From NCBI RefSeq assembly GCF_000234805.1, contig NC_016645.1, positions 1,402,391 through 1,466,390 on the forward strand: DNA of 64,000 bases, given 5' to 3'. Position numbers and translations under genes: made by a program. This document shows, in pieces, positions 10,041 to 33,990 of this stretch (position 1 is its first letter; every line of letters begins with the position of its first letter). The notes beneath the pieces were generated by a model that searched no databases, was not told the origin of the DNA, and saw nothing but the letters and a program-made list of their open reading frames with translations. Source of the stretch: Pyrobaculum ferrireducens (GTDB lineage Archaea; Thermoproteota; Thermoprotei; Thermoproteales; Thermoproteaceae).

Positions 10041-10072
10041 TGTGTACACAGTTAATAGTAATTAATTTAAAT
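10041..10072 (+). promoter_or_regulatory. TGTACA operator plus TATA box of the octaheme cytochrome gene
   Basis: A 10 bp palindrome TGTGTACACA (10041-10050) is followed, 14 bp after its TGTACA core, by AATTTAAATT (10063-10072). The GTG start at 10093 is 25 bp from the box centre. The same arrangement occurs before 20150, 24203, 25582 and 30131. Confidence 0.6.
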
Positions 10073-10092
10073 TGTGTTAAACGTGTATATTT

Positions 10093-10779
10093 GTGAAGAG
10101 GAGTCTAAGCAGAGTTTTTATTCTGCGAATCGTCGTATTGGCTCTATTGGCTATTCTCCTGGCTTTACCAGTTTTTTATGCATACTTTACGTATACCCCC
10201 ACGTTAAATGTGCAGTGTAGCATCTGCCACACAATGAAGTTCTACGTGGCTAATATAAGTAAGCCACACGCCACCTACAGCTGTTTGGTGTGCCACAACC
10301 TTGATATGGCGAAGATTCTCAACATAATGTGGACGTATGTCACGCAGTCTCCAGCGCCGCGGACAGTTTTTGAAAAGTACTACCCACACAGAGATCTGCT
10401 AGAGAACTGTAAAAAATGTCATGCAGATTCTAGCAGATTGGCAATACATAAGGTTCATGACCAAGTTGTAAAAACCTTAGGGACTTGTAGCGTCTGCCAC
10501 GCAGTACATATCCAGAACTTCCTAGACCAGTCGTGTGTCAAGTGCCACCCCTATCTCGACACGGTGGATAAACACATGCAGATGCACGGCGGCGTAGTTG
10601 CGCGGCTGGCCGCCGACGACTGCGCAAGGTGCCACTCGCCTCTGGCAGATGCACCTGTACTGCCTGCGAATATTTGCCTAGAGGCCACTATCGAGGGGAG
10701 GAGTTGTATGAGTTGCCACGCCCAGCTCAGGCCGCCGGATATATCAGACAAGCCCTGCATCAAGTGTCATTATAAGTAA
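10093..10779 (+). CDS. Octaheme c-type cytochrome with N-terminal anchor (NapC/NrfH-like)
   Basis: 228 aa. One N-terminal transmembrane helix (residues about 8-30) is followed by eight CxxCH heme sites: CSICH, CLVCH, CKKCH, CSVCH, CVKCH, CARCH, CMSCH and CIKCH. The first is CxxCHxM, as in NapC/NrfH quinol dehydrogenases where Met can ligate heme 1. It most likely sits on the outer face of the membrane and passes electrons from quinol or from the FeS/NrfD module encoded next to it. It is paralogous to 14937, with the same spacing of the first two hemes and a shared (I)SK-PH motif. It has its own TGTACA-controlled promoter. Confidence 0.85.
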   Translation: MKRSLSRVFILRIVVLALLAILLALPVFYAYFTYTPTLNVQCSICHTMKFYVANISKPHATYSCLVCHNLDMAKILNIMWTYVTQSPAPRTVFEKYYPHRDLLENCKKCHADSSRLAIHKVHDQVVKTLGTCSVCHAVHIQNFLDQSCVKCHPYLDTVDKHMQMHGGVVARLAADDCARCHSPLADAPVLPANICLEATIEGRSCMSCHAQLRPPDISDKPCIKCHYK

Positions 10780-10849
10780 TGTACAGTAGACATCTATCGT
10801 GAACAAGATGTATAAACATCTTTAAATAAGTTACACGGATACTCTAATC

Positions 10850-11635
10850 GTGTCTACCTTAAAACCTGTCAAATGGCCGTCGCGAGACTTCGGTGTACTT
10901 TATGATGTAGATAAATGTACAAAATGTGGAAGGTGCGTATTGGCATGTAAAGAGAGGAACGGAACAGTCTACGAAGCCAAGTCTAAAAGCTTCCAGCCGT
11001 CGTCCCTCACGGCGACTACATGGCTCTCCCTAAGGGAGTACAGAGGCGTCCCCTTCCTCCACCGCTGTTTTCACTGCTATTCAGCGGTATGCGCATTGGT
11101 GTGTCCCGTAGATGCCCACATAGTCACTGACTATGGCGCCGTGGTTATACAACAAGATAGGTGCATTGGCTGTGGGAGATGCGCCGAGGTGTGTTGCTAC
11201 GGCGTACCGAGACAAGGCCTAGACAGGAGGTACAAGAAATGCGACCTCTGCCTAGATAGGATAGCGCAAGGAAAGCCGCCGGCGTGCGTGGAGGCCTGCC
11301 CCGTCGGCGCGCTTAAATTCGGCAAGATAGAAGACATCTACAAAGCGGCTAGGGAAGAGGAGGCAAAGGGGCGGTGTACATACGGCATAGAGCTCACACA
11401 TTGGGTATACGTATATAGTGACCAAGAGGCTTTTGAGGCATTTCTAGGCGACGTTGCGAGGAGGAAAGATGCCGAGAAAATTAAAAATATACTCTCATTC
11501 CCCACGAAGCGCGGCGCGCCCCCGCCGGTGAGCTACCTAGGAATAGAGGGGGCTGTCATAGCTCTCTCCATCGCAGCCCTTGTGGCCTGGCGTCAAAACA
11601 GGATAAGGGAGAAGAAGGAGGGGGGTCATGAATAG
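10850..11635 (+). CDS. Four-cluster ferredoxin-type subunit with C-terminal membrane helix (HybA-like)
   Basis: Four cysteine groups for [4Fe-4S] clusters are visible: CTKCGRCVLAC, CFHCYSAVCALVCP, CIGCGRCAEVC and CDLCL...ACVEACP. Residues about 233-250 form one hydrophobic helix followed by a basic tail, as in HybA. No Tat signal is obvious, so it may be cytoplasmic-facing or carried by its partner. GTG start, TATA at about 10819-10828. It overlaps the next FeS gene by 8 bp and heads an operon running to about 17425. Role: electron transfer between the NrfD-type quinone subunit and cytochromes. Confidence 0.85.
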   Translation: MSTLKPVKWPSRDFGVLYDVDKCTKCGRCVLACKERNGTVYEAKSKSFQPSSLTATTWLSLREYRGVPFLHRCFHCYSAVCALVCPVDAHIVTDYGAVVIQQDRCIGCGRCAEVCCYGVPRQGLDRRYKKCDLCLDRIAQGKPPACVEACPVGALKFGKIEDIYKAAREEEAKGRCTYGIELTHWVYVYSDQEAFEAFLGDVARRKDAEKIKNILSFPTKRGAPPPVSYLGIEGAVIALSIAALVAWRQNRIREKKEGGHE

Positions 11636-12308
11636 GCGGACTTTTCTTAAGACGCCTGCGCTGGCCCTCCTCGCCACTCTGCCTACTGCTAAGGCAAAGT
11701 CTATAAAGTTACAGCCAGTGGAGAAGCCGGGGGGGACTGGCGGCGCGAAGAAATACGCCCTTTTGTGGAGCGCGACTAAGTGTATCTTTTGTGGGGCGTG
11801 TGTCGCCGCGTGCAACGCCGTGAATTATGGACGTGACAAAACTCCAAACACAACATGGGGGTGGCCGCAAGCAAATACAAGAATTGTAGAGGTAAGTCAC
11901 GGCAGGGCTCCCAAATTCGTCTTTACGCAGTGCCAGCACTGTGAAGACCCGCCCTGTGTCTACAACTGCCCCACGGGGGCGTCTTACATAGATAAAAAAC
12001 ACGGCGGCGTTGTCATAATAGACTACAACCTGTGCGTCGGGTGTAAATACTGCCTAGCCTCGTGTCCCTACGACGCCAGGTGGATAAATGGAGATGGGCT
12101 ACCTTCAAAATGCCACTGGTGTTTTCAAAGGGTAATGGAGGGGAAGCCCCCGGCATGCGTAGCCTTCTGTCCAGTGGGGGCGCGGGATTTCGGCGACTTA
12201 AACGACCCCAACTCGTCAATATCACGCCGCCTAGCCAGCGCCAAGGCGGTGTACGTCCTCTTGCCAGAGAAAAATACAAAGCCAAGGTTCTATATAGTGG
12301 AGGAGTAA
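11628..12308 (+). CDS. Tat-exported four-cluster ferredoxin-type subunit (NrfC/TtrB-like)
   Basis: 226 aa. The N-terminus MNRRTFLKTPALALLATLPT is a twin-arginine-type signal, so the protein should end up outside the membrane. Cysteine groups CIFCGACVAAC, CQHCEDPPCVYNCP, CVGCKYCLASCP and CHWCF...ACVAFCP fit four [4Fe-4S] clusters. The stop overlaps the NrfD start by one base (TAATG). It most likely connects NrfD to the octaheme cytochromes. No molybdopterin subunit is present in this operon. Confidence 0.88.
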   Translation: MNRRTFLKTPALALLATLPTAKAKSIKLQPVEKPGGTGGAKKYALLWSATKCIFCGACVAACNAVNYGRDKTPNTTWGWPQANTRIVEVSHGRAPKFVFTQCQHCEDPPCVYNCPTGASYIDKKHGGVVIIDYNLCVGCKYCLASCPYDARWINGDGLPSKCHWCFQRVMEGKPPACVAFCPVGARDFGDLNDPNSSISRRLASAKAVYVLLPEKNTKPRFYIVEE

Positions 12309-13291
12309 TGTTCCAGGAGTACTGGGACGCGTTCCTCATCGGCCCCTTCCTCTTCTTCGCAGGTCTGGTAGGCATAGGCATGGCCACCACGTCGTTTCTG
12401 AGGCTGAAAAGGTACGAGTTGAGGTACGAGGTATTGAGCTATCTTTTCCTTGGGTTCATCATATTGGCGTTGTTACTAGTGATGGCCGACCTCACAAGGC
12501 CTCCGACAGTTATGATGTTCTCAATGCTCAACTCCTTCATCACTCTGAGGTATAACTTCCTACTGCCGGTTCTGAGGGGGGAGATAACCCTAAGATTCTC
12601 ATGGATGGCCCTTGGCATAGTTATGTTAATAGTGGCGCTCCTTCTAGTAGCTATATGGGCGGTGCCCCACCTACTCGAAAGGATCAGGGTAATTCTCCCA
12701 CAGCGCATCACCAAGCCTCTTAGCCCAATCCTTACTATATTGGACAAGTTGGCTGGTTTCTTCCTCGCCCAGAAGTGGTTTTACTACCTATGTATGGTGG
12801 TGGGGGTGGTGGTGACGCTGTACAGCGGCTTCTTAATTTCAGAGGCAAAGGCAGTGCCCTTTTGGAACATCACGCTGTGGGGAATCCCGGCGATCCCAGT
12901 AATATGGATTTTCTCCGCCACCGCGGGCGCCCTGGCGTTCATAAGAATGTACCACCTAGATCACGAGCACATAGTCCACACAACTGAGAAATACGGCGTG
13001 GTGGCTGAGCTAGGCGAAATTCTCTTCATCTTTCTCTATCTCTACACAGCGCTGAACTCCCCGTCTATAGCAGCGAGGGAGAGCGCCTACGCAGTGATGT
13101 GGGGCGAAGTGGCGCCGGTCTTCTGGGGAGTAGTGATCGGCCTGGGGATTCTGACGCCGCTAGCCCTAGCCGCTGTATCGAGATTTTACCACAGCCCCGT
13201 ACTCATATACGCCGGTTGCGTAGCCGGCCTGTTCGGCGCTTTGGCGCTAAGAACCATGGTAGTGTACGTAGGAATACCTGAGCCTTTATGA
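12308..13291 (+). CDS. nrfD: NrfD/PsrC-type quinone-interacting membrane subunit
   Basis: 327 aa with about nine hydrophobic helices, beginning MFQEYWDAFLIGPFLFFAGL. Family-typical segments include the RPPTVMMFSMLNSFIT region after helix 2. The open frame extends far upstream inside the previous gene, but TAATG at 12306-12310 is the natural start. The protein should oxidise or reduce quinol at the membrane and exchange electrons with the two FeS subunits encoded before it. It overlaps the following gene by 4 bp (ATGA). Confidence 0.85.
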   Translation: MFQEYWDAFLIGPFLFFAGLVGIGMATTSFLRLKRYELRYEVLSYLFLGFIILALLLVMADLTRPPTVMMFSMLNSFITLRYNFLLPVLRGEITLRFSWMALGIVMLIVALLLVAIWAVPHLLERIRVILPQRITKPLSPILTILDKLAGFFLAQKWFYYLCMVVGVVVTLYSGFLISEAKAVPFWNITLWGIPAIPVIWIFSATAGALAFIRMYHLDHEHIVHTTEKYGVVAELGEILFIFLYLYTALNSPSIAARESAYAVMWGEVAPVFWGVVIGLGILTPLALAAVSRFYHSPVLIYAGCVAGLFGALALRTMVVYVGIPEPL

Positions 13292-14934
13292 CAAGGGTCG
13301 TATACATCGTGTACCTATTGGCGGCGTTAGGCTACGCCCTCAGCATAGCGGCGGCACCTGGAGCAGTAGTTAAGATCGAGAACAGGACTACCTTGACCGT
13401 AACCACAGACTTAATACTGACGGTGGAGGTGAATAATACAAAACTTTCCCAGCTCTACGGAGGAGACGTCTTCACCACCGCCGTCGTTAATTACGAGCTG
13501 TGGTGCTCAGCTAAGATGAATAAAAGCGTGGTCTATTTACTACAGAAGCCGATAGATGCGGTAACCCTTTCCTTTTCTCAGATCTCGATGGATATCTGCC
13601 AAGGAGAAGTCACAAAAATAGCGAAGCTGTACATCTACCTAGTAGTTTTAACACGGGACGGCAGATACGTAGCATCATTTCACATAGACGTCGCCAAGCT
13701 CGCCGCAGAGGCTGGAATAAAGCTTGAATTCACGCCAGAGTGGAGAGCCGTTGTGTTCACCATCGACACCAGGTTGGTAGACCGCTGTAATTGGTTAGAG
13801 TACGATATAAGGGGCAAATACGGCGGCGACGTGGGAGTCTTGAAAATAATTTCATGGGACTGCTTCAACTCCTCTAGAGCACTGCGTATTTCATACCAAC
13901 CTACGTACTTCTACCTCTCTAAATATATAAAAGTAAACCTATACATAACCATCGACAACAGGACTCTGGCTAGGGATTTAAGTACAGGAGGCGAATTTAT
14001 TCTACCGGGCCGCGAGGGCCTCTACGGAGTTGTTAAAAACATGACAATAGAGATCTATGGTCCCCAGAACCGCTATTTCTTAAAGCCGCTTGACACCATA
14101 GGACCCGTCAACATAACTCAACCCACAACGTCGCAGAGGCAGATAACTGGCATCGTGATTAACGCCACTTACATACCTCCCTTCTACTTCATGGAGATCC
14201 TCCTCAACGACACAGTAGCCCCCGAAGGGCTTTATATATACCAGGGCAACGTCACCCCGAGGCTTCTATACGCCTATGCTGTGGTCAAAAAGCCAAACCT
14301 GCTCCATATCTACGTTATTCCAGAAAGAGAGGGGTACCTAAGCGGCAACTTCACAATAACCTACTCCGGCCCCGGCGTAGTTAAGACAGGGTCGATACCC
14401 GTCCCGCCTATTCAGCTAGGCGCCGGGGAGGTTGTCAAGTCGTGGCCGGAGCCCAGGGCCAAATTTTACCAAATAGGAATTAAGCAACCGCAACCGCTGA
14501 TCAGCGTCGACATACCGCTGGAGGGAGGCGCCGTCGCCGCCTATGTTGAGGTAAACGCCACGGTGAGGCCGAGAGATCCGCTGTACCCCTCCATGCTCTA
14601 CATCGCCGCGTATGTCAATAAATCGGGAGTGTTGTTGCCAATGCCCCGAGGTGTTTTACTAAACTCCACAAACCCCGGGATTTACAGCGCCTATCTCAAC
14701 GGTACAGTTAGGTTGAGGTGGCTAATCCCAGCCCCAAGCGGCGGCTCGCTTACCGTTTATATCTACGGCGACAACATAGCCACCTTCCAGTTGCTCTCAG
14801 GCAGGGCTTACCTCCTAACGCCCCGTTGGAGCCAGAGAACGCTATCGCCACCAGCTGACTGGGATCGCGTAGTAGCCGCGGCGCTTGCCACAGCCGCGGC
14901 AGCCGCCTTGCTTGTCTTCAAGCGCCGCAGGTAA
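13288..14934 (+). CDS. Secreted, C-terminally anchored protein of unknown function
   Basis: 548 aa. The N-terminal signal (about residues 1-23, ending AAAPGA) is followed by a long beta-rich, Asn/Thr-rich ectodomain with many potential N-glycosylation sites. A C-terminal hydrophobic helix (AAALATAAAAALLVF) ends in KRRR. No catalytic motif is recognised. It overlaps nrfD by 4 bp and is followed 3 bp later by the octaheme cytochrome, so it is an integral part of the electron-transfer operon. It could be a scaffold or S-layer-contacting component that places the cytochromes. This is inference. Confidence 0.75.
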   Translation: MTRVVYIVYLLAALGYALSIAAAPGAVVKIENRTTLTVTTDLILTVEVNNTKLSQLYGGDVFTTAVVNYELWCSAKMNKSVVYLLQKPIDAVTLSFSQISMDICQGEVTKIAKLYIYLVVLTRDGRYVASFHIDVAKLAAEAGIKLEFTPEWRAVVFTIDTRLVDRCNWLEYDIRGKYGGDVGVLKIISWDCFNSSRALRISYQPTYFYLSKYIKVNLYITIDNRTLARDLSTGGEFILPGREGLYGVVKNMTIEIYGPQNRYFLKPLDTIGPVNITQPTTSQRQITGIVINATYIPPFYFMEILLNDTVAPEGLYIYQGNVTPRLLYAYAVVKKPNLLHIYVIPEREGYLSGNFTITYSGPGVVKTGSIPVPPIQLGAGEVVKSWPEPRAKFYQIGIKQPQPLISVDIPLEGGAVAAYVEVNATVRPRDPLYPSMLYIAAYVNKSGVLLPMPRGVLLNSTNPGIYSAYLNGTVRLRWLIPAPSGGSLTVYIYGDNIATFQLLSGRAYLLTPRWSQRTLSPPADWDRVVAAALATAAAAALLVFKRRR

Positions 14935-14936
14935 GT

Positions 14937-15641
14937 ATGAGGCTCTCCCTCCTGTCCTTTAAGAAGTTCTTCACCCCCAAGACACTGGCTGTGTTGCTAC
15001 TGGCGGTGGCCCTTGCCGCCGGCGTAGGGATGTGGCTATATGTAAGATACGACCCAGGTAGTTCAAGCATATGCGCCACCTGCCATAACATGGCCCCCTT
15101 CGTCGCCGACATATCTAAAACCCCACACGGAGCCGTGGCCTGCGCGTGGTGCCACAGTATCGACTTCCCCCGGTGGCTTTATGTACAAGTGGTTGAGAAC
15201 CCCACCCCCCAGCAGATAGCCCAAAGATACAGCGCCACGATGCTGAGCCAATGCGTAAGTTGCCACTCGCAACAGTTAAACCCGCCAAATATCCACAAGA
15301 CGCACACCGCCCTGGTACAGAAACTCGCCGACTGCACAATCTGCCACAACCCACACAACCCACAAGCCCTAAGCGCCAACTGCCAGATCTGCCACGATAT
15401 AAACAAGATATTAGCTAGTCACATGGAGTTCCACGCCTACGCCTGGGCCCAGGTAGACACGGGCCGCTACGACGTCTGCCTCGAGTGCCACAGCCCCTGG
15501 GGCAAGTGGTACGTCCCTATAGGCCCGGACTGCCAGCTAGGCATCGGCAGGGGGGTCACCTGCATAGGTTGCCACGGCCCACGCGCCGAGCCCTTCCAGC
15601 CCATCCAGTTCCTAGACTGCGGGAGATGCCACGCCAGGTGA
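14937..15641 (+). CDS. Octaheme c-type cytochrome with N-terminal anchor (NapC/NrfH-like)
   Basis: 234 aa. One N-terminal membrane helix (residues about 12-35) precedes eight heme sites: CATCH, CAWCH, CVSCH, CTICH, CQICH, CLECH, CIGCH and CGRCH. The first is CxxCHxM as in NapC/NrfH. It is a paralogue of the cytochrome at 10093 but embedded in the FeS/FeS/NrfD operon, so it is the probable electron exit of that module. The 3' end overlaps the protease gene. Confidence 0.85.
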   Translation: MRLSLLSFKKFFTPKTLAVLLLAVALAAGVGMWLYVRYDPGSSSICATCHNMAPFVADISKTPHGAVACAWCHSIDFPRWLYVQVVENPTPQQIAQRYSATMLSQCVSCHSQQLNPPNIHKTHTALVQKLADCTICHNPHNPQALSANCQICHDINKILASHMEFHAYAWAQVDTGRYDVCLECHSPWGKWYVPIGPDCQLGIGRGVTCIGCHGPRAEPFQPIQFLDCGRCHAR

Positions 15642-17425
15642 TACACGCGTTGTTGCTACTCGCCGCGCCACATGTCCTAGCCGCCGCCTTTGGCATAGCG
15701 CTGTACCAAGACCGCGGGATCCCCGTCGAGGTATCTGTCAATGTGTCGAGGGGTTCGGGCTACGTAAATATTGAAGGCCTCTACTACTACGACGACTCCC
15801 TCTGGTACTCCACGGTATTTGCCTGCTGGGAGGCCGCAATTTCGGCCGGCGCCGATCCCTTCTCTTATAACTACACAGTCTACATAGCTCCGATAAACGC
15901 TTCAAGATCGCTGGCGGGGCCGAGCCTATCCCTAGCGGTATACATAGCAACCTACAGCACCATCACCGGGTCACCAGTAAACTCCAGCGTTGTGTATACG
16001 GGAACCGTGGCGCCAGGCGGCGTCGTAGACTTCGTAGGCGGAGTTGAGCAGAAGGCCGAAGGCGCCGCGAGATACGGCTTTAAACTCTTCGTCTACCCGG
16101 CGTTGCAACACCTAGAATTTAAAATGGTGGAGAAGCCGAGGCTGATAGGGGTGTACGGCTCCTTAGTGCCCGTGTTGGAGATCACTCCCATACAGATCAG
16201 GAACATAACTGCCATTGAGGTGGGCAACGTATACCAAGCCGCCGCGGCTACAACTGGGCGTTACAACGCCACTGCCAATATCGAGAGGCTAAGAGAGGTA
16301 CTTACGAGAACCAACGCAACCGCCCCCCAGTACAAAATCGACGCGTTGATAAACGAGGTAAATAGGGCAGTGAAGAAAGCCAAGAGACTAGCGGCGCAGC
16401 AACCCAGGTACCACGACGCCCTCGCCGCGGGCATAGGCAAGGCGCTTGCATATGTAGAAATCTCTAGAAACATAACTGCGGCATCTACCGAGGCGCTCCC
16501 CAGGGCGTTGGCTGAGGTCTTGACACCCTACTTTTATGTGCTATTCGTCACAGATTTTGAGAGGGGACGTGCCGTGGCTGAGATATACCTCGCCACGTTG
16601 CGAAACATAACAGAGGCTTTGAGGCCGGCTGTAGGAGCCGATAACATATGCGACGCCGCCGTGGCCCACGCCTACATCCACACGGCAGAGATGGCTAAAT
16701 CAACGGCGGAGAGGTCACTGACGTCGTATATGCTGACAGGAGACGTCACATACGCCGCCGAGGCTTCTTACTGGTACAGCCAAGCCGCCTACTACCTATG
16801 GAAGGCAATTCTGCTATCCAGAGAGCCAACCACCGGGCTGGATCTCAACAAGACGCTGGCGAAAATAGGCCGCTACGTACAGACAGCGGTTGAGTACGGC
16901 GATGTATACAGCAGAGCCACCGGCGTAACCTCGCCCCAGCTCCTAGAAGGCGGCGCGAAACTCAACCTCCTGAGGGCACTCGCGGCGCAACAAGAGGGCC
17001 GCGGCGAGGCCGCGCTGGGCTACTACATCGAGGCCCTCGCCTCCCTCCTCGCCTACTTCGCCATACACCCCGGGTTCCCCAACACCACCGGGGTGAAGTA
17101 TATGCACTATCTAGACGCCGTCGCCCACGTAGCGGCGCCGGTTAAATCTATATATGCCGCCGAGGCCGCCGCCCTTGCAGAAGCCGCCGGCCTTAACGAC
17201 ACAAAGATCTTGTACATGGCAAAAATTCACGCATGTATCATAGCTGAGAAGCTAGCCGTAGCCGGCGACGGCGCCCCACACCGAATGCTGAGATACGTTA
17301 ACTACCAAGCGCCGGCCCCCCCTCCACAGCCACCCGGGGAGATGCCAGTAGAAATCACCGCGCTGGGGCTACTCCTCCTGGTGTTTATAGTCAAAGTACT
17401 GCATCACCTCAGCAGGCGGCGTTAA
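15626..17425 (+). CDS. Secreted Lon-like (S16) serine protease without ATPase domain
   Basis: About 599 aa. A signal peptide (MPRQVIHALLLLAAPHVLAA) is followed by an S16-like domain in residues about 25-190. This has SLAGPSLSLAVYIA (nucleophile Ser in GPS) and GVVDFVGGVEQK (catalytic Lys), in the Lon order and spacing. It matches the archaeal exported S16 type that lacks an AAA domain. A long helical region follows, then PPPQPPGEMP and a C-terminal helix ending RRR. The canonical GPSAG is GPSLS here. ATG 15626 overlaps the cytochrome by 16 bp; GTG 15638 (GTGA overlap) is an alternative start. In this operon it could process or quality-control exported cytochromes. Confidence 0.75.
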   Translation: MPRQVIHALLLLAAPHVLAAAFGIALYQDRGIPVEVSVNVSRGSGYVNIEGLYYYDDSLWYSTVFACWEAAISAGADPFSYNYTVYIAPINASRSLAGPSLSLAVYIATYSTITGSPVNSSVVYTGTVAPGGVVDFVGGVEQKAEGAARYGFKLFVYPALQHLEFKMVEKPRLIGVYGSLVPVLEITPIQIRNITAIEVGNVYQAAAATTGRYNATANIERLREVLTRTNATAPQYKIDALINEVNRAVKKAKRLAAQQPRYHDALAAGIGKALAYVEISRNITAASTEALPRALAEVLTPYFYVLFVTDFERGRAVAEIYLATLRNITEALRPAVGADNICDAAVAHAYIHTAEMAKSTAERSLTSYMLTGDVTYAAEASYWYSQAAYYLWKAILLSREPTTGLDLNKTLAKIGRYVQTAVEYGDVYSRATGVTSPQLLEGGAKLNLLRALAAQQEGRGEAALGYYIEALASLLAYFAIHPGFPNTTGVKYMHYLDAVAHVAAPVKSIYAAEAAALAEAAGLNDTKILYMAKIHACIIAEKLAVAGDGAPHRMLRYVNYQAPAPPPQPPGEMPVEITALGLLLLVFIVKVLHHLSRRR

Positions 17426-17521
17426 TACTAGATGTACACTAAATATAACTTAAGGAAACAAATAATATAAAAAGCAAATTAGTTATAGAAAAACTTAAAA
17501 GATACCCAAAAACTCTCACAC

Positions 17522-18682: not shown

Positions 18683-18706
18683 TAATAAAACATATTTTTT
18701 CCTTTC

Positions 18707-20110
18707 ATGTTGAATTTAGTATTTCTATTATTTCTCCTAGTTGCCAGCGTCGTATTTCCCTCTTTTCCTCTATTAGCCGTTGCGATATATGCCGTGGGCC
18801 TCGTCTTTATTGCCCGGCGTCATTGGTGGTTCCTGGTGACGTACGGCGTCTTGTTAGCCGCTGTCTGGGAGATGGGAGGGGTGCCGGGGCCTTTGCAACA
18901 CTTAGCGTTGCTTGCGGTTGCGCTCTACGTCACAGCGATTGCCATTTGGCAACACGCCTACGTGCCGATCGCGGGGGGCGTCGCCGTAAGCTCTATCGGC
19001 TACGTGGCGGCTGGAGATCCTCTAAAGGTCTTTGCTCCCTACTTCGCCTATTTAGCTATGGTGGCGTGGGTGGCTTGGAGGCTTGGCGGGGGGAGGCCGG
19101 CCTATTTAATAGGAACCTCCTCGCTAGTTCTACAGACAGTAGTTCTGCTTTTTGGCGAGGTGCCGCTAGTGGGGAGCTGGCACTTCGCCCCTTTGCTAGT
19201 TTTCTCCCTAATCCCCCTGGTCTTCCAAGACGGGGGAGGTTTTACACCATGTAGAGATGTAGCGGCGTTGATTATCTCCGCCGCCGGGGGCCTGGCTTGG
19301 GGGCTGTTTGTACTGTTTACGAAATCGCCCGACTCCTTCTATACAAATCTATACACGTTGCCATTCCTCGCGATGTCGGCGCTGTTGGTGTCTCTGATAA
19401 GATCCCCCAGGGGGTTCGTGGGGGGTGTCTTAGTCGCCTTGGGGATATACCTCCTTGGTCTATACTTTGTACCTCCTCTCCTTTCATGGCTCTTTACATC
19501 GGTTATTCCTCTGTACGTTGTCTTGGCGTTTTCCTTGGGGAGATCCAGGGCGTTGGTCTACGCGACGGCGGCCGTGGTCACCGGGCTTGTCTTGATCTAC
19601 ATCTCGCCGTTGATATATACGCCGGCGGCAACAGCCAGCCTCAAGCTTGGGCCCGTCGTGGTGGCCCCCGACGGAACCCTGGCCTCTTACAAAGGGGGCT
19701 TCGCCAAGCTCTCTGGTGGTGCCTTCGGCGTAGTCGACGGCGTCGGTAGGGGGTATGTATATGTTGAAGTTTTTCGCACGGGCTTCAAGGCGCCTATAGA
19801 GGTGGATTTTGTAGATATGGAGGGCTCTGTCTACCAAGGCGTCTTCTACATATTTCCCGATATATACATCATCAGGATTTACGTACTTGACGACGTCTAC
19901 AGGTCTTATCTCATGTGTACGCTGGGCTCCGAGCTAGGCGTTGGGTGCGGCGGGTTGCGGCTATCTCTTGAGCTGGTGGTGACTGTGGCTCGCGGTGTCT
20001 TGCTCTACGGGTTGCTGTGGTTCTGTGTGTTGCTGTCTCCGTGGGTTGCGTGGCGTCTCTCGCAGTGGTTGATAACTTTTGTGGAGCGGTTTAAAACAAC
20101 TGTACACTAG
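18707..20110 (+). CDS. Polytopic membrane protein of unknown function in the cytochrome maturation cluster
   Basis: 467 aa. About ten hydrophobic helices fill residues 1-310, then a soluble beta-rich domain (starting near LKLGPVVVAPDGTLASYKGG), then a final helix pair near the C-terminus. No WWD heme-handling motif or CxxC is seen, so it is not CcmF/CcmC. It lies between the tetraheme cytochrome and ccmF, all on one strand. The topology (membrane bundle, outside domain, last helix) resembles that of CcmF in outline. It may help heme delivery or cytochrome export; no family is recognised. Confidence 0.7.
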   Translation: MLNLVFLLFLLVASVVFPSFPLLAVAIYAVGLVFIARRHWWFLVTYGVLLAAVWEMGGVPGPLQHLALLAVALYVTAIAIWQHAYVPIAGGVAVSSIGYVAAGDPLKVFAPYFAYLAMVAWVAWRLGGGRPAYLIGTSSLVLQTVVLLFGEVPLVGSWHFAPLLVFSLIPLVFQDGGGFTPCRDVAALIISAAGGLAWGLFVLFTKSPDSFYTNLYTLPFLAMSALLVSLIRSPRGFVGGVLVALGIYLLGLYFVPPLLSWLFTSVIPLYVVLAFSLGRSRALVYATAAVVTGLVLIYISPLIYTPAATASLKLGPVVVAPDGTLASYKGGFAKLSGGAFGVVDGVGRGYVYVEVFRTGFKAPIEVDFVDMEGSVYQGVFYIFPDIYIIRIYVLDDVYRSYLMCTLGSELGVGCGGLRLSLELVVTVARGVLLYGLLWFCVLLSPWVAWRLSQWLITFVERFKTTVH

Positions 20111-20130
20111 TTATACATAGACATAAATAG
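20101..20130 (+). promoter_or_regulatory. TGTACA operator plus TATA box of ccmF
   Basis: TGTACA (20101-20106, inside the end of the previous gene) is followed after 14 bp by ACATAAATAG (20121-20130). ATG 20150 is 24 bp from the box centre. It has the same geometry as the other operator sites. Confidence 0.6.
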
Positions 20131-20149
20131 AGAGATGTATCTACAATAC

Positions 20150-24147: not shown

Positions 24148-24153
24148 TAGCAA

Positions 24154-24182
24154 TGTACATTTCGTATAATAAGTTTTATATC
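24154..24182 (+). promoter_or_regulatory. TGTACA operator plus TATA box of ccmC
   Basis: ATGTACAT palindrome (core 24154-24159), 14 bp, then TTTTATATC (24174-24182). The GTG start at 24203 is 25 bp from the box centre. Confidence 0.6.
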
Positions 24183-24202
24183 TTGATTTCAGAAGTAGTT
24201 GC

Positions 24203-25141
24203 GTGACTGGGTGGAGATTCCTGTTGTATATTCTCATCGCGGCGGATGTCCTGTCTGCGATCTACCTCGTGGGGTGGGGGCCTTTTCCGCTGATTATTTC
24301 AGAACTGGGCGCACCCACGGCGTATTTAAACGTGTATGTCCACGTGCCTGCGGCTATTCTGCTGTACATAGTTGCTGTCGTAGCCCTCGCCTTCGCAGTG
24401 TGGGGCGCCGTGAAGAGGCCCTCCGAGAGGATTGTAAAGTGGATGGACTTCTCGGCGTATACAGTGGCGTTGCTGGGCTGGTACGCATTTATAAGCGGCA
24501 CGATATGGGCCGCCGAAAGCTGGGGCTCCCCCCTCGCCCTCGACCCTAGGCAGATGTCTATACTTGTCCTAGCACTGGTATTCTCTATATACCCGGCGAT
24601 TAGGAGGGGTGTCGAGGATCCCGACAGAAGCGTCAAGCTGGGCCAGGCGTTTATCGCGGCGGGGTTTGTCCTAGCTGTGGTGTCTCTCCTAGCGCCCGTC
24701 CTCGCGCAGGCCTACCACCCCAAGCCTGGGACGACGCTCGCCGGATCCATGGGGATGTACATGGGCTTACGCATCCTCCTCCTCATAGCTCTTTTCTTCT
24801 CAGTAATGTTTCTAGGCTCTGCCCGCCACGTCGCATGGATCTACGTAGTGGGCGTCTTGATTTCGCTGGCGCTGCTCTACCCCTGGCTTTTTTACAGCCC
24901 TGTCAGAGTTGTGAATGTTACGGCCACCTCCATTATCTTGGAAAATGGCAGGTCTGTGCCGGTGCCGCCTGGCGAGGTTCTCAGCCCCGTGGAGGTGGGC
25001 GGAGTCCCCACGTTGCCTAAGAACTACGTTGCTGTGATCGGGGGGAGGGTTGAGCTGGTGAGGCATTTTAGTGCGTTTGTAAATTCTGCGCTTTACTTCA
25101 TTTTCATGGCTTTACTCCTCAAGCTGAGGGAGAGGCTATGA
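24203..25141 (+). CDS. ccmC: Heme-handling membrane protein CcmC/CcsA-like
   Basis: 312 aa with about eight hydrophobic helices. The tryptophan-rich region WAAESWGSPLALDPRQM corresponds to the CcmC heme-handling motif, and conserved histidines (VYVHVPAAI, RHVAWIYV) flank it. A short outside beta domain (residues about 232-285) precedes the last helix. It should load heme onto CcmE. It overlaps ccmE by 4 bp (ATGA). CcmC and CcsA are related; the CcmE neighbour favours CcmC. Confidence 0.85.
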   Translation: MTGWRFLLYILIAADVLSAIYLVGWGPFPLIISELGAPTAYLNVYVHVPAAILLYIVAVVALAFAVWGAVKRPSERIVKWMDFSAYTVALLGWYAFISGTIWAAESWGSPLALDPRQMSILVLALVFSIYPAIRRGVEDPDRSVKLGQAFIAAGFVLAVVSLLAPVLAQAYHPKPGTTLAGSMGMYMGLRILLLIALFFSVMFLGSARHVAWIYVVGVLISLALLYPWLFYSPVRVVNVTATSIILENGRSVPVPPGEVLSPVEVGGVPTLPKNYVAVIGGRVELVRHFSAFVNSALYFIFMALLLKLRERL

Positions 25142-25512
25142 AGAGGTGGGTGTTGGCCGGGGTCTTAATTGCCGTGTTTCTGGCGGCCGGCATAGCCTCG
25201 CTTTATATAGGCACGCCGAGGGACGTGTCTGATCTCGAACGCTTCTCGGGTGGAAAAGTGCGGGTTTCTGGTAAACTTGTGACGTATGGCAAGTCTGGGG
25301 ACTACCTCTACCTAATCCTCGAGGGGAGGGACGGCTTTAGAATCACGGCGGTTGTGCCGTATGTAGAGGTGTTGAAGGTGGCTGGCCCCTCCTTCCAGTT
25401 CAGCGACGAGGTTGTGGTTGAGGGCTTCTACAACCCCAGTACAAGGGTGTTGAACATAACCACCATTCTAAAGGGTTGCCACTCTGCCTACTATGCGCCG
25501 GTTAAGAGCTGA
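25138..25512 (+). CDS. ccmE: Heme chaperone CcmE, archaeal CxxxY type
   Basis: 124 aa. One N-terminal membrane helix is followed by an OB-fold-like domain (GKVRVSGKLVTYGKSGDYLY...). The heme-binding motif near the C-terminus is GCHSAYYAPV, where Cys replaces the His of bacterial HxxxY. This CxxxY form is known from archaea and some sulfate reducers. It receives heme from CcmC and delivers it to CcmF outside the membrane. Confidence 0.9.
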   Translation: MKRWVLAGVLIAVFLAAGIASLYIGTPRDVSDLERFSGGKVRVSGKLVTYGKSGDYLYLILEGRDGFRITAVVPYVEVLKVAGPSFQFSDEVVVEGFYNPSTRVLNITTILKGCHSAYYAPVKS

Positions 25513-25533
25513 GTTGTTAAACATTAGATTTTA

Positions 25534-25562
25534 TGTACATGTTTTATAGAAATCTTTTTATC
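25534..25562 (+). promoter_or_regulatory. TGTACA operator plus TATA box of ccmA
   Basis: ATGTACAT (core 25534-25539), 14 bp, then CTTTTTATC (25554-25562). GTG 25582 is 24 bp from the box centre. A second A/T-rich box within the first codons (25589-25602) would suit GTG 25618. Confidence 0.55.
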
Positions 25563-25581
25563 GAGATTGGTATTTGAAAAT

Positions 25582-26193
25582 GTGTATACTTATAAGTATA
25601 TATCCGAGTGGGGGGATGTGATTGAGGCTGTTGACGTGTGGAAGCGCCTAGGCGGGGGCTGGGTGTTGAGGGGGCTGACTCTTAGAGTTAACAGCGTTGT
25701 GACGCTTGTCGGGCCTAATGGCTCTGGCAAGACGACTCTAGTCAGGATAATCGCCGGCGTTTTGGAGCCCACCAGGGGGGAGGTTTATGTAGACGGGAGG
25801 AGGCCTAAGGTGCCGGCTAGTTTGCTGGGCGTGGTTTTCCACAACCCGATGCTGTATCCAGAGCTCACAGTGAGGGAGAATTTAAAGCTGTTTGGAAAGA
25901 TGGCTGGTGGGAGACTGGAGGGGTGCCCCCTGGGAGTTTGTAAAGTGCTTAACAAACCTGTGAAGGCGCTGTCATTTGGCTGGAGGAGGCGTGTGGACAT
26001 CGTGAGGGCTCTCCTGCCGGATCCGCCTAATTTAGTAATCGACGAGCCCACCACAGGCCTAGACGAGGAGGCGAGGGGGGAGCTTCTTGACATCCTGAGG
26101 CAGAGAAGCGCGGCGTTGCTCACATCTCCATTCCCACTGGGCGTAGGCGTGCAGGTGGGCATCGAGGAGGTTCAGTATGTGGGAGGTAGTTAA
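25582..26193 (+). CDS. ccmA: ABC transporter ATPase CcmA
   Basis: About 203 aa with Walker A GPNGSGKTT, a degenerate signature region (ALSFGWRRRVDIVRALL) and Walker B LVIDEPTTGLD. It is the ATPase that drives release of heme-loaded CcmE. The family usually starts near the codon at 25618 (MIEAVDVWK...); GTG 25582 fits the TATA box at 25554; TTG 25567 is also open. The signature lacks the canonical LSGGQ, as is common for CcmA-like proteins. It overlaps ccmB by 17 bp. Confidence 0.82.
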   Translation: MYTYKYISEWGDVIEAVDVWKRLGGGWVLRGLTLRVNSVVTLVGPNGSGKTTLVRIIAGVLEPTRGEVYVDGRRPKVPASLLGVVFHNPMLYPELTVRENLKLFGKMAGGRLEGCPLGVCKVLNKPVKALSFGWRRRVDIVRALLPDPPNLVIDEPTTGLDEEARGELLDILRQRSAALLTSPFPLGVGVQVGIEEVQYVGGS

Positions 26194-26722
26194 GGCAGAT
26201 TTCAAGGCGGCGTCCCGTAGGCTGGAGGAGCTTGTCTTTATTGCAGTTGCCGGAGTGGCGGCCGGGGTGCTGGGGTCCTTCGCAGGCGGTGCCTCTGTTT
26301 ACCTCGTCGCGCTTTTAATGTCTCAAATCGCTGCGTATCTCTACGTCATTAGGGATTGGGACCGAGGAGTGTTGGAGGGCCTCATCTACTACATAGGCCA
26401 CGTCGGCGTCTACGTCTCTAAGCTCGTGGTCACCTCGACGGTGGCTCTTGCATCGACAGCTCTCGCCTGTCTATTTATCAACATCTCCTATCTCCCATCC
26501 GCCGCGGTGGGGGCGTTGTTGCTATCTGCCACCAGCTCGCTGGCCGCGTTGTTTGCCGTATATGGCGGCCTCCCGCCTCCTGCGGCGACTGCCATGTCGC
26601 TTGTGCTGGCGCTTCCGCTGGTTGTTAGAGTTGTAGAGGGTGGGTTTGTGGTTTCTCTCGCAATGGTCGCAGTGGTTGTGGGTATGGGTGTGATAGTTTC
26701 GGCGTTGCTTGACAAGGTATGA
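26177..26722 (+). CDS. ccmB: Heme exporter permease CcmB-like
   Basis: 181 aa with six hydrophobic helices after an amphipathic start (VVKADFKAASRRLEELVFIA). It is shorter and more divergent than bacterial CcmB (about 220 aa), but position after ccmA with overlap and the topology support it as the membrane partner of the ATPase. It overlaps the next gene by 4 bp. Confidence 0.7.
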   Translation: MWEVVKADFKAASRRLEELVFIAVAGVAAGVLGSFAGGASVYLVALLMSQIAAYLYVIRDWDRGVLEGLIYYIGHVGVYVSKLVVTSTVALASTALACLFINISYLPSAAVGALLLSATSSLAALFAVYGGLPPPAATAMSLVLALPLVVRVVEGGFVVSLAMVAVVVGMGVIVSALLDKV

Positions 26723-27852
26723 GACTCCTCTTCATATTCTTGCTTGTCGTAGCTGTTGTTTCTGCCAGCTATGTGGAGAAGGGCGCTTTAGTGTTCCAAG
26801 TGATAGACTCCCCCAAGGCGGTGGAGGGTAGGTTTTTGTTGTATTTCTACCAGCCGCTGTGTGAGGAGTGTAGGGTGCTTGAGGCAGAGGTGTTTTCCGA
26901 CAGAGCTGTGGCCGCCGCGCTTTCGGGATATCAGCTGTACGCTATAGATATCTCTAGGTCTCGGGTGGATTACATAGACGTCTATATAGATGGGCAGGTT
27001 GTGTACGTCGACCACGGCGTGGTGAAGTACTTCGTAACGAGGGGTGAGAGGAGGTTTCTAATCCCCGGCACGCCCACCGTGGTGATCGGCGTAAGGGAGG
27101 GGGACGTGATTAAGATGCTGGGCTTCTGGACCGGCGCAGACATGCCTCCCGGAGTGAAGCTTAAAGACGCCTTTATACAGTTTTTAAAAGAGGCCTCGGC
27201 AGAGAGAGGCGCAGAGGCCCGAGGTGGATCTGATTTCTATATCTGGCCTCTAGTCTTTACTTTTTTGATGGGCGTGGCCAGCGTATTCTCTCCATGTGTC
27301 CTGCCTGTCTTAGGCGTCGCGGCGGTTTCCCACTTCGCCCGGCGCAGTGTAGGTAAGGTGCTCTCTGGTTTAGTTGTTGCCTACGCCGTTTTCGGCGTCT
27401 TGGTGGCCGCCCTGGGCGAGGTGGCGTCATCTGCGAAGTTTCTGGTTACAGCTATAGGAGGGGTGGTACTCCTGGGGATGGGGCTGGTGTTGCTTGTAGA
27501 TAGGTTGAATATTAAATACGCCGTGGCTATGTCCCGGCTTCAGACATCGGCGTTTAAAAAACTCGGCGGCGCGGGGGATTTCCTCCTCGGCTTATCTCTC
27601 GGCGGCGTCTGGATGCCGTGTATCCTGCCGTATACAAGCTTCGCCACTGTGCTGGCCCTATCATCACTCGCCGGCAACTTCGCGTTGTTGTTTCTATCGC
27701 TTCTGCTCTACGGCGTGGGCCTCGCCGCCGCCAGCTACATGGTAATTAAGGGTCTCTTCAGACGCGTGGCCGGGGGGAGGAGGCTGGAGAGGGCGGTGGG
27801 GATCGCCGCGATGTTGCTCGGCGTTTATATGCTGGCGGCTGTGTTGATATGA
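26719..27852 (+). CDS. Thioredoxin-like domain fused to CcdA (DsbD-like reductant conduit)
   Basis: 377 aa. A signal is followed by a thioredoxin-like domain with FYQPLCEECRVLE (CxxC) near residue 45. A second half of six helices has FSPCVLPVLG and GVWMPCILPY, the paired membrane cysteines of CcdA. It carries reducing power from the cytoplasm to the outside to keep CxxCH cysteines reduced for heme attachment. In most organisms the thioredoxin partner is separate or C-terminal; here it is N-terminal in one chain. ATGA overlaps on both sides. Confidence 0.85.
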   Translation: MRLLFIFLLVVAVVSASYVEKGALVFQVIDSPKAVEGRFLLYFYQPLCEECRVLEAEVFSDRAVAAALSGYQLYAIDISRSRVDYIDVYIDGQVVYVDHGVVKYFVTRGERRFLIPGTPTVVIGVREGDVIKMLGFWTGADMPPGVKLKDAFIQFLKEASAERGAEARGGSDFYIWPLVFTFLMGVASVFSPCVLPVLGVAAVSHFARRSVGKVLSGLVVAYAVFGVLVAALGEVASSAKFLVTAIGGVVLLGMGLVLLVDRLNIKYAVAMSRLQTSAFKKLGGAGDFLLGLSLGGVWMPCILPYTSFATVLALSSLAGNFALLFLSLLLYGVGLAAASYMVIKGLFRRVAGGRRLERAVGIAAMLLGVYMLAAVLI

Positions 27853-29003
27853 ATTTTGTAGACCGCCTTGTCGCGCTTTCACTTACGCATAAAGAGGTAG
27901 ATGTAAATACCTTGTCGGAGGTGGCGCGGGGAGTTCACAAGAGGTGCGTGGAGGCTCCCTATCCAATTTTTGTCCTCCACACCTGTAACAGAGTAGAGGC
28001 GTATCTATATGACGTGCCAAGGGAGTTTATAAGCTTCATAAAAGAGGGCTACGCGCCGTACATAGGCAGACTAGTTGAATACAGGGGGCTGGACGCCGCT
28101 AGACACCTCTTTCGCGTAGCCGCCGGACTGGAGTCTATGCTAATCGGCGAGACGGATGTTCTAGGCCAGGTTGAGGAGGCGTTTGATAGACAGGTAAAGG
28201 CTGGCTACACCCGCGGCCTTCTTAAGACAGTGGTGGAGAGAGCTATAAGAGTGGGGAAGCGCGTCAGAACTGAGACCGGCATATCCAGAGGGCCACGTAG
28301 TCTTGGAACTCTGGCGATTATGTATGTACAGAAGAAGCTTGACCTCTCCACTGCGAAGATATGCGTCATTGGTCTAGGCGCGGTTGGCCGTGGATTAGTC
28401 AGGAGCTTGAGAGAAATGGGGGCGGGGGATGTGGTGGCGGTAAACCGTACTGTGGATAAAGGAGCGGATCTGGGCGTGGTGGTGTGGGCGTTGACTGAGG
28501 AGTCTGTGGAGAGATGTCTCAAGGAGTTTGACGTGGTCTTCACCGCCGTTTCTGCTTTTGAGCCGGTGATTAAGCAGTTGCCGCAGGGGGCCAGGGTAAG
28601 TTTGATAGTTGATTTAGGGATGCCTCGAAACACCGCGCCGGGGGTCCCCAACGTGGTGACTTTAGAAGATTTGAGATCTCTCGCCGAGGAGTACAACAAG
28701 AGCCGCGTTGCAGAGGTGGAGAAGGCGGAGAGGATTGTGGAAGAGGAGGTGCAGTCGCTTGAGCTGTTTCTAAGGAGGCGTTGGGTCGAGGAGAGGTGGG
28801 CTGGGCTACTGTCCTACTGGGTTAAGATCGCCGAGGATGAGGGCGAGAGGGCCGGCGGGGGGCTTGCGAAGACCGCCGCCCTAAGCGCAGTCAAGAAGAG
28901 CATTCTCCCACTTATCAACTACACGAAGTACATGGCGCTTGAAAAACCTGAAGAGGCTGACAGACTTATTTCAATTCTTGAAAAGGCGTATAAAATTAAA
29001 TAG
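27849..29003 (+). CDS. hemA: Glutamyl-tRNA reductase
   Basis: 384 aa. Reduces glutamyl-tRNA to glutamate-1-semialdehyde, the first step of heme synthesis. Visible motifs are FVLHTCNRVEAYLY (catalytic Cys46), AAGLESMLIGETDVLGQVE, and the NADPH-binding stretch VIGLGAVGRGLVRSL. Its overlap with the CcdA gene places heme supply in the same transcript as cytochrome assembly. Confidence 0.95.
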   Translation: MNFVDRLVALSLTHKEVDVNTLSEVARGVHKRCVEAPYPIFVLHTCNRVEAYLYDVPREFISFIKEGYAPYIGRLVEYRGLDAARHLFRVAAGLESMLIGETDVLGQVEEAFDRQVKAGYTRGLLKTVVERAIRVGKRVRTETGISRGPRSLGTLAIMYVQKKLDLSTAKICVIGLGAVGRGLVRSLREMGAGDVVAVNRTVDKGADLGVVVWALTEESVERCLKEFDVVFTAVSAFEPVIKQLPQGARVSLIVDLGMPRNTAPGVPNVVTLEDLRSLAEEYNKSRVAEVEKAERIVEEEVQSLELFLRRRWVEERWAGLLSYWVKIAEDEGERAGGGLAKTAALSAVKKSILPLINYTKYMALEKPEEADRLISILEKAYKIK

Positions 29004-29579
29004 ATGAGGAGGCGTATAAGGCCTATGTCTAGATCTACAGTGCCTGTGGAGGGAGACGTAGCTAAGGAGCTGTCAACGGTGGCCAAGTCTCAGGGTTTTT
29101 CCGTGTTGAGGCTGGCCTCGGATTCCCTTAGGCTGGCCCTCGAGCTTTTGAAACGCGGAATCACCCCAACCAGAGCTATAGAGATGTGGAAGCTGACTGA
29201 GAAAATCGCGGCGTTCGACGCGGTGCCCGTCCCCCTCTCCTACCTAGAGCTGGTAGCTAAGAAGTGGGGGGTTTGCGAAGATCCTGAGGTAGAGGCCTTC
29301 CTTAGGGAGATAGGAGCTAAGTTTGGCAAAACCGTTGCGGGGGAGTTCAGGAGCTTCGGCGAGTTTATGTCTGTGGCTACCCAGTTTCTCTCAATGTTGC
29401 CGGTGGCTAGGCTCTCCCTCAGCCGGGGCGGCAACACGTGGCGTATTGTCTTCACCTCGGCGGGGTCCTTTTCTGTGAAGTGCCTGGGCTACTTCGCCGA
29501 GGAGGCTGTAAAGCAGTTTGGGTGTGTGGTGAAGATTTCCTACGGTGACTCTACGATCACCGCAGAGGTTACGTGTTGA
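29004..29579 (+). CDS. Putative regulator, paralogue of the next gene
   Basis: 191 aa. The N-terminal 70 residues (TVPVEGDVAKELSTVAKSQG, then helices with ALELLKRGITPTRAIEMWKL) align with the start of the protein at 29611 and have a ribbon-helix-helix-like pattern of one strand and two helices. The C-terminal half is a separate alpha/beta domain with RLSLSRGGNTWRIVFTS and two cysteines. It starts immediately after hemA. DNA binding is inferred from pattern only; a heme- or redox-sensing role would fit the neighbours. Confidence 0.55.
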   Translation: MRRRIRPMSRSTVPVEGDVAKELSTVAKSQGFSVLRLASDSLRLALELLKRGITPTRAIEMWKLTEKIAAFDAVPVPLSYLELVAKKWGVCEDPEVEAFLREIGAKFGKTVAGEFRSFGEFMSVATQFLSMLPVARLSLSRGGNTWRIVFTSAGSFSVKCLGYFAEEAVKQFGCVVKISYGDSTITAEVTC

Positions 29580-29582
29580 CAA

Positions 29583-29611
29583 CTTTTATATCTGCTGTAC
29601 AGTTCTGTACA
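29583..29611 (+). promoter_or_regulatory. TATA box followed by a double TGTACA site overlapping a start codon
   Basis: CTTTTATATC (29584-29593) is followed by TGTACAGTTCTGTACA (29596-29611), two TGTACA hexamers one helical turn apart; the last A is the first base of ATG 29611. Here the sites lie between the TATA box and the start, where bound protein would block transcription, so autorepression of the 29611 gene is likely. Confidence 0.6.
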
Positions 29612-30048
29612 TGGTTAACAAATATGCAAGACTTGCAGTAGATAGGTCTCTAGCTGATACTTTTTCACAAAAGGTACGGAAAATGGGACGCAAGCCATCT
29701 GACGTAATATCCGCAGTTTTGAAAGCCGTCATAGACGCCGTTGACCACGGCGTCGACCCCATAGATATGATTCACATATGTCGAATAGCAAGATCGGTGG
29801 GAATAGGGAAGGGGGGCTACGAGGTTGGGCTGAACGCCGGCGCTCTGCTCAAGGCGTACTACACCCCGCAGGAGTTTCTAGAAGTCTTAACGAGGGTGGG
29901 GCCCCAGGCGATGGGCGTCTACAGAATTGCCCCCGGAGTTTTTAGGATTAACGATCCCCAGCTCCGGGAGACTGTGCGGGGGTTGCTGACCGGCATGGGG
30001 TGTAGATGCGAAGAGAGTCAAGAAATCCTCAAGGTTGTCTGCGACTGA
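29611..30048 (+). CDS. Putative ribbon-helix-helix-type regulator of the respiratory block
   Basis: 145 aa from leaderless ATG 29611. The N-terminus (KYARLAVDRSLADTFSQKV, then RKPSDVISAVLKAVIDAV) has the strand-helix-helix layout of RHH DNA-binding proteins. The C-terminal domain includes YTPQEFLEVLTRVGPQ and ends with a Cys pair (GCRCEES). It is paralogous to 29004. The double TGTACA site on its own promoter, and single sites at five neighbouring promoters, make it the best candidate for the TGTACA-binding protein. Binding is not shown by the sequence. Confidence 0.55.
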   Translation: MVNKYARLAVDRSLADTFSQKVRKMGRKPSDVISAVLKAVIDAVDHGVDPIDMIHICRIARSVGIGKGGYEVGLNAGALLKAYYTPQEFLEVLTRVGPQAMGVYRIAPGVFRINDPQLRETVRGLLTGMGCRCEESQEILKVVCD

Positions 30049-30069
30049 AGGTACACAGGTTATAAATCT

Positions 30070-30097
30070 TGTACACAGCTTGATCAAGTTTTATAAC
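30070..30097 (+). promoter_or_regulatory. TGTACA operator plus TATA box of the molybdopterin enzyme operon
   Basis: TGTACA (30070-30075), 14 bp, then TTTATAAC (30090-30097). A related GGTACACA lies at 30050-30057. The expected transcription start (about 30118) is after ATG 30107, which argues for ATG 30131 as the translation start. Confidence 0.6.
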
Positions 30098-33307: not shown

Positions 33308-33990
33308 GGCCGGTATTTGTCATTGATCTCAATAAGTGCGTCGGTTGCCGCGCGTGCGTAGCCGCTTGTGTGCAGGAGCACGGCCAGGTGTTCACCGCCG
33401 CACGGACTGCAGACATCGGCAGGCCTCAGACTGTTTGGCTGAGGACGTGGGTGGAGTGGAGGGAGAGGGAGGATCCCACGCCGTCTAGGAAGTTTATACC
33501 ATATCTATGTTACCACTGTGAGAACTCGCCCTGTGTCACGGCGTGTCCAACCGGCGCCTCTTACAAGACCAAGGAGGGAATTGTGTTGATAGACAAAGAT
33601 CTGTGTATCGGTTGCCGCTACTGCGTCGTGGCTTGTCCATACGGCATGAGATACGGGCCGCTGGTTAAAACCGCTGAAAAAGCTATGGAGGAGCCGCTAG
33701 TGAGGGAGGCGGCCGAGGGGGCTAAATACGGCGGGGTGATATTCAAACCGCCTGTACCTAATAAATGGGCCTTTAGAGCGGACGCCGTTGATAAGTGTAC
33801 CTTCTGTTACCACAGATATAAGGGAGATGGCAAGATATGGACGCCTGCATGTGTAGAGGTATGTCCTACAAAGTCTCGGATGGTAGGCGATTTAGACGAC
33901 CCCAGCGACGAGGTGGCTGACTTGGTGCGTAGGGGCGTAGCTAAGCCGGCTAATAAATGGGGAGGGTTGGTATACTACGTGGGGCTATGA
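33304..33990 (+). CDS. Four-cluster ferredoxin-type electron transfer subunit
   Basis: 228 aa with CVGCRACVAAC, CYHCENSPCVTACP, CIGCRYCVVACP and CTFCYHRY...ACVEVCP, i.e. four [4Fe-4S] clusters as in PsrB/TtrB. It has no signal peptide, so it is probably exported with the Tat-carrying catalytic subunit. It passes electrons from the membrane subunit at 33987 to the molybdopterin subunit. Overlaps of 4 bp on both sides. Confidence 0.9.
   Translation: MRPVFVIDLNKCVGCRACVAACVQEHGQVFTAARTADIGRPQTVWLRTWVEWREREDPTPSRKFIPYLCYHCENSPCVTACPTGASYKTKEGIVLIDKDLCIGCRYCVVACPYGMRYGPLVKTAEKAMEEPLVREAAEGAKYGGVIFKPPVPNKWAFRADAVDKCTFCYHRYKGDGKIWTPACVEVCPTKSRMVGDLDDPSDEVADLVRRGVAKPANKWGGLVYYVGL

Follow-up and report, generated by a model that had tools for sequence, protein, structure and literature searches.

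A conserved TGTACA operator linked to two putative ribbon-helix-helix genes at anaerobic respiration promoters of Thermoproteaceae

We observed that a TGTACA operator, set at a near-fixed distance from the TATA box and repeated in 10-bp phase, marks genes for anaerobic respiration and cytochrome synthesis in Pyrobaculum ferrireducens. The computational analysis showed the operator, its spacing, its phasing, its conservation and its link with two adjacent genes, RHH1 and RHH2. We consider it likely that a regulator dedicated to anaerobic respiration binds the operator in Thermoproteaceae, with RHH2 as the leading candidate, probably acting with RHH1, and that this regulator activates its targets and represses itself. 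We infer which protein binds, whether it activates or represses, and what signal it senses. The window analyzed here is a stretch of 64,000 nucleotides (positions 1,402,391-1,466,390) of the 2.47-Mb single-contig host genome (G000).

Promoter layout and operator architecture

A preliminary description of this DNA reported five TGTACA hexamers, each with a TATA-like box exactly 14 bp later and four of them 43-45 bp from a start codon. All five hexamers were present. They precede an octaheme cytochrome gene (TGTACA at 10043..10048; TATA-like TTTAAA at 10066-10071; start 10093), ccmF (20101..20106; TATA-like CATAAA at 20122-20127; start 20150), ccmC (24154..24159; TTTATA at 24175-24180; start 24203), ccmA (25534..25539; TTTTTA at 25555-25560; start 25582) and a molybdopterin reductase gene (30070..30075; TTTATA at 30090-30095; start 30131). 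The molybdopterin reductase promoter has an additional GGTACA 20 bp upstream, at 30050. The distance to the TATA box was near-fixed rather than exact, being usually 15 bp and about 14-17 bp at the sites in the window. Measured gaps between hexamer and start codon were 44 bp (octaheme cytochrome), 43 bp (ccmF), 43 bp (ccmC) and 42 bp (ccmA), and 55 bp for the molybdopterin reductase.

Two further copies had been set apart as having other spacing; both proved to be part of the set and are conserved in other genomes. The copy at 10780..10785 lies before a ferredoxin-type gene (start 10850; TTTAAA at 10821-10826), and a TGAACA 20 bp past it, at 10800-10805, occupies the standard distance from the TATA box. 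The copy at 17433..17438 lies 89 bp from the start of a multiheme gene (17522), where the TATA box is indistinct. We also observed two boxes beyond those described: a tandem pair at 29596/29606, in front of RHH2, and a degenerate tandem (TATACA-N4-TGTACG, 35317..35332) before a type III sulfide:quinone reductase (SQR)-like gene (35368..36534, plus strand). The reductase gene at 30131 opens a plus-strand operon (30131..35156) encoding a PhsA/PsrA-like Mo enzyme, an Fe-S subunit and an NrfD/PsrC-like membrane subunit. A second small octaheme protein, a paralogue of the 10093 product with 8 CXXCH motifs in 234 amino acids, is encoded at 14937-15641 without a TGTACA box of its own.

Promoters of orthologous genes were aligned on the hexamer to build a logo. 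Counted from the hexamer, the logo showed a TATA element at +11 to +14, an A-rich BRE-like stretch at +16 to +18 and TTTAWA from +21, which places the TTTAWA core 15 bp after the hexamer. With 35 sites, a mirror copy of the TATA element was seen at -6 to -10, and the full operator therefore reads as the palindrome TTATA-N5-TGTACA-N5-TATAA. The most frequent starting point of proximal boxes was 43 to 51 bp ahead of the start codon, peaking at 48-49 bp, which fits leaderless mRNAs. Where a target promoter had paired TGTACA boxes, the two were 10, 20, 30, 40 or 60 bp apart (±1) in 16 of 19 cases (P = 1.5e-6), as expected for subunits bound on one helix face. The site first described as a lone hexamer thus keeps TGTACA as its core within a longer palindrome repeated in 10-bp phase.

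Enrichment, conservation and scope of the regulon

TGTACA occurred 39 times in the window compared to 9.5 in shuffles, a raw count that overstates the case because the hexamer is frequent in coding DNA of the host genome and the majority of the copies are coding. Intergenic rates gave a different measure. A 400-kb sample of the host genome gave 2.0 intergenic TGTACA per 10 kb, less than in coding DNA; the corresponding figure for the cluster at 9.9-36.5 kb of the window was 53 per 10 kb, ~26-fold above the sample and top among 24 palindromes of equal composition. Because the hexamer is common in coding DNA, scans without promoter context give false matches. Exact TGTACA-N14-TATA, a pattern that is too strict, matched six places in the whole genome, none of which were the five sites. 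A looser TATA pattern gave 28 matches versus 14 in the control, and only conserved places were therefore retained. A tandem pattern allowing one mismatch stayed at control level in the host genome.

A consensus scan of 19 family genomes returned nine matches in the host genome versus none for the reversed-pattern control, and 12 versus 1 in G002. Seven of the G002 matches were at orthologues of ccmA, ccmC, ccmF, FdA (the ferredoxin), octahemeA, the 13288 gene and a second Mo-reductase, most of them 48-50 bp before the start. Orthologous sites were found in Pyrobaculum oguniense TE7 (G005) and G002 for the octaheme cytochrome, ferredoxin-type and ccmA genes, and in these two genomes and G014 for the multiheme gene and ccmF. 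The ccmC site was conserved in G002 and appeared as TGTACT in P. oguniense TE7. The molybdopterin reductase promoter carried TGTACA in all eight genomes where it was mapped, and the SQR promoter had an exact TGTACA-N4-TGTACA in G009, G001, G004, G017 and G018.

Across all mapped promoters, TGTACA stood within 110 bp of the start in 43/55 target promoters versus 1/75 other genes at the same loci. This comparison has some circularity, since two or three of the targets joined the list only once they had been seen elsewhere. We also scored an unbiased set, restricted to the other genomes with near-duplicates removed. When targets were chosen in the host genome and scored elsewhere, TGTACA was found in 23 of 28 orthologous promoters and in 1 of 53 others (P = 2e-14). 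The preliminary description had named two observations that would count against it, spacing that is not conserved at orthologous promoters and a motif equally frequent upstream of unrelated genes. The hexamer-aligned logo showed conserved spacing, and the unbiased set showed that the motif is rare before unrelated genes. The box was missing from some orthologous promoters in RHH2-bearing genomes, namely that of SQR in G002, Pyrobaculum sp. WP30 (G006) and G014, and that of a second PhsA-like Mo-reductase (MopA2) in G001 and G015.

The genes had been described as a cytochrome/respiration regulon. Respiration and cytochrome genes do carry the motif; "cytochrome" is too narrow a label. The targets also include the ferredoxin gene (10850), the multiheme gene (17522), the SQR gene and RHH2 itself, and, elsewhere in the host genome, MopA2 (G000:C1:2,222,942). 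Two PhsA/PsrA-like molybdenum reductases and SQR were the broadest members, joined by ccm and multiheme genes in cytochrome-bearing species. In species that have no ccm cluster, the Mo-reductase promoter still had the motif, as often did that of SQR. These data suggest that the regulon is better described in general terms as serving sulfur-compound or related anaerobic respiration, and that cytochrome synthesis joins it where present.

Several isolated sites were recorded along the way. At G009:C4:18277 (L144), the opening codons of a Mo-reductase-like gene stand behind a TGTACA promoter and then pass into an NrfD-like frame; the arrangement looks like a deletion of the second Mo-reductase gene that left its promoter in place. 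The G001 orthologues of the Mo-reductase (L063:8264-11436) and of gene 2248 (L062:13109-15176) each gave two overlapping partial matches, a pattern suggestive of frameshifts or sequencing errors. G001 also has a tandem TGTACA at C1:1509248-1509263 (L020), with a CbiM-like transport gene on one side and a divergent small membrane protein gene on the other; its orientation suits the latter. In the host genome, leaderless-looking TGTACA promoters precede a 2-oxoacid dehydrogenase E1-like gene (G000:C1:1559019) and a function-unassigned gene (2049682).

Candidate regulators and competing readings

RHH1 (29004..29579, plus strand; likely start 29028) encodes a putative ribbon-helix-helix protein with an alpha/beta C-terminal domain. 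RHH2 (29611..30048, plus strand) encodes a second putative ribbon-helix-helix protein and is the best candidate regulator. The tandem operator TGTACA-N4-TGTACA at 29596..29611 is the sole exact tandem copy in the host genome. It lies between the RHH2 TATA box, read from the sequence as TTTTATAT (29584..29591, plus strand), and the start codon, and we propose it as an autorepression site. Directly 5' of RHH1, after ccmAB/ccdA, is hemA (glutamyl-tRNA reductase, 27849-29003); it is co-directional with these genes and with RHH1, so that heme synthesis may share a transcript.

RHH2 was limited to Thermoproteaceae, where 12 of 19 genomes have it. Close RHH1 orthologues occurred in the same 12 genomes, those showing the regulon, and always directly upstream of RHH2. 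Exact tandem boxes were found in 8/12 genomes with RHH2 compared to 4/69 class members without it (P = 6e-6). TGTACA or a variant with a GTAC core stood at -15 and/or -5 of the RHH2 promoter in 10 of 13 orthologues. The exceptions were G017 and G018, which instead have an exact tandem just downstream, before the SQR gene, and G014, which has RHH2, few TGTACA sites elsewhere and none at the RHH2 promoter. In G003 and G004 the Mo-operon retains its tandem boxes although it lies far from RHH2, an arrangement that favours action in trans. Close orthologues of RHH1 and RHH2 were absent from G016 and G011; the SQR promoters of both genomes had no promoter-proximal box, nor did the MopA2 promoter of G016. 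The products of 29004 and 29611 had already been suspected as regulators; the autoregulatory site and the distribution of both genes strengthen that suspicion. In G002 a further close copy of RHH1 stands at the distal end of the ccm cluster (G002:C1:1378244-1378786), apparently without a second RHH2.

Among 13 RHH2 orthologues, Y5, R7 and A9 in the predicted strand were invariant; H46, D49, D52, H55 and C57 are further invariant residues of RHH2. Alternating strand residues Y5, R7 and A9 would be the DNA-facing ones, a suggestive fit to a ribbon-helix-helix protein. Monomer models placed helices at 12-24 and 29-45 in RHH2 and at 17-29 and 34-50 in RHH1, with the N-terminal strand at low confidence. 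In Pfam and NCBIfam RHH1 had no significant match of any kind and RHH2 none of relevance, and neither protein had a significant ribbon-helix-helix family match (one RHH1 member matched RHH_5 at E = 0.62), so the assignment of this fold comes from sequence shape and the monomer models. Profile searches of solved structures with both proteins gave nothing relevant, and a fold search with RHH2 gave no significant match. The same search with RHH1 returned mainly designed proteins and BcsD, with H-NOX as a weak match (E = 0.013).

With archaeal regulators like TrmBL1 and Tgr, sites upstream of BRE/TATA lead to activation and sites downstream to repression (PMC4158304), and a site upstream of TATA is linked to activation for TrmBL1, Tgr and Ptr2 (PMC4158304). 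By analogy with this position rule, the candidate factor would activate its targets and repress itself. We propose that a dimer of the regulator would read each palindromic hexamer through a two-fold beta ribbon, with further dimers seated 10 bp away on the same helix face. At a box ~15 bp upstream of TATA, near -45 relative to the mRNA start, the regulator would recruit TBP/TFB and activate the Mo-reductase, SQR, cytochrome and ccm genes, and boxes between TATA and the start codon would let it repress its own gene. The conserved His/Asp/Cys residues could serve to sense the signal, perhaps a sulfur compound or redox state. Only tentatively do we extend this to a new RHH1/RHH2 pair that would sense sulfur, heme or redox state through the RHH2 His/Asp/Cys residues or an H-NOX/V4R-like domain of RHH1, bind 10-bp-phased TGTACA arrays, activate via TBP/TFB from ~-45 and repress itself.

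That a common hexamer is enriched here by chance or through composition is very hard to credit: the abundance of TGTACA in coding DNA and the unrelated places picked by TGTACA-N14-TATA alone speak for it, and it is contradicted by the intergenic enrichment, the cross-species conservation, the phasing and the presence/absence tests. Given that the operator and regulon are real, we judge it unlikely that another DNA-binding protein reads TGTACA, with RHH1 and RHH2 as targets or accessory proteins. The RHH proteins are without domain matches, as this would allow, and a Cys-rich winged-helix gene has TGTACA promoters in G002 (L147:2275-2877), G009 (L148:1671-2336, minus strand) and probably G003 and G004. 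However, the host genome has the regulon but no member of that family at E <= 1e-3, and on this ground we rejected it as the general regulator; it is possibly a secondary regulator under TGTACA control. The RHH2 promoter is also among the most consistently marked, and the co-occurrence of close RHH1 and RHH2 orthologues with the regulon in the same 12 genomes points to the pair.

The roles within the pair could also be reversed or shared, with RHH1 as DNA-binding sensor and RHH2 as a co-regulator or antagonist under its control, or with the two forming a heteromer. We regard this as possible and rather doubtful. RHH1 has the larger C-terminal domain, with its weak resemblance to BcsD and H-NOX folds, its close orthologues keep their place directly upstream of RHH2, and its promoter mostly lacks a box (1/12 have one), as expected for a gene outside the feedback loop; but the RHH1 family is wider and includes distant members from genomes that do not have the motif, whereas RHH2 was seen only in Thermoproteaceae. 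A palindromic operator with phased repeats is frequently a repressor site, and the protein might repress all its targets, including those with a box upstream of TATA. This appears improbable, because target boxes end ~15 bp upstream of TATA and leave the BRE free, in a place associated with activation (PMC4158304), whereas at the RHH2 gene itself the box lies downstream of TATA, the place of repression.

Relation to known regulators and significance

We know of no characterized regulator of anaerobic respiration or cytochrome c maturation in Thermoproteales. An earlier mention of the TGTACA motif was not found in the literature searched, and one may exist. MetJ and other ribbon-helix-helix regulators are small strand-helix-helix proteins that bind short palindromic boxes in tandem. 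RHH1 and RHH2 are likewise small, with a predicted N-terminal strand-helix-helix shape, and their putative boxes are tandem palindromes; they differ in the 10-bp spacing, the lack of a sequence-family match and the proposed activation in an archaeon. YefM/Axe antitoxins use the same TGTACA core inside palindromes that autoregulate their own operon (PMC4803016). Unlike the Pyrobaculum system with its many unlinked targets, they have a different fold, a 12-bp centre spacing and a toxin-antitoxin operon as their only target. RHH1 and RHH2 had no Phd match, and their neighbours are hemA and the Mo-reductase, with no toxin gene seen beside the pair.

The TrmBL1/Tgr regulon of Thermococcales (TGM motif TATCAC-N5-GTGATA) is alike in having one palindromic motif per metabolic regulon, in the position of the motif relative to BRE/TATA setting activation or repression, and in autoregulation (PMC4158304). 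In position, the TGTACA sites fit this TrmB-type dual layout, upstream of BRE/TATA at most targets and downstream of TATA elsewhere. The motif is different, the targets are respiratory and not sugar genes, and RHH1 and RHH2 had no match to the TrmB DNA-binding domain (PF01978).

Overall, the analysis yields a defined operator and a cross-species target list, and singles out a candidate protein whose gene carries a putative autoregulatory site. If our reading is right, it would add an example of activation or repression being decided solely by where the site lies relative to TATA. If RHH1 and RHH2 do act as a sensing pair, cytochrome c maturation would be coordinated with the electron-acceptor enzymes.
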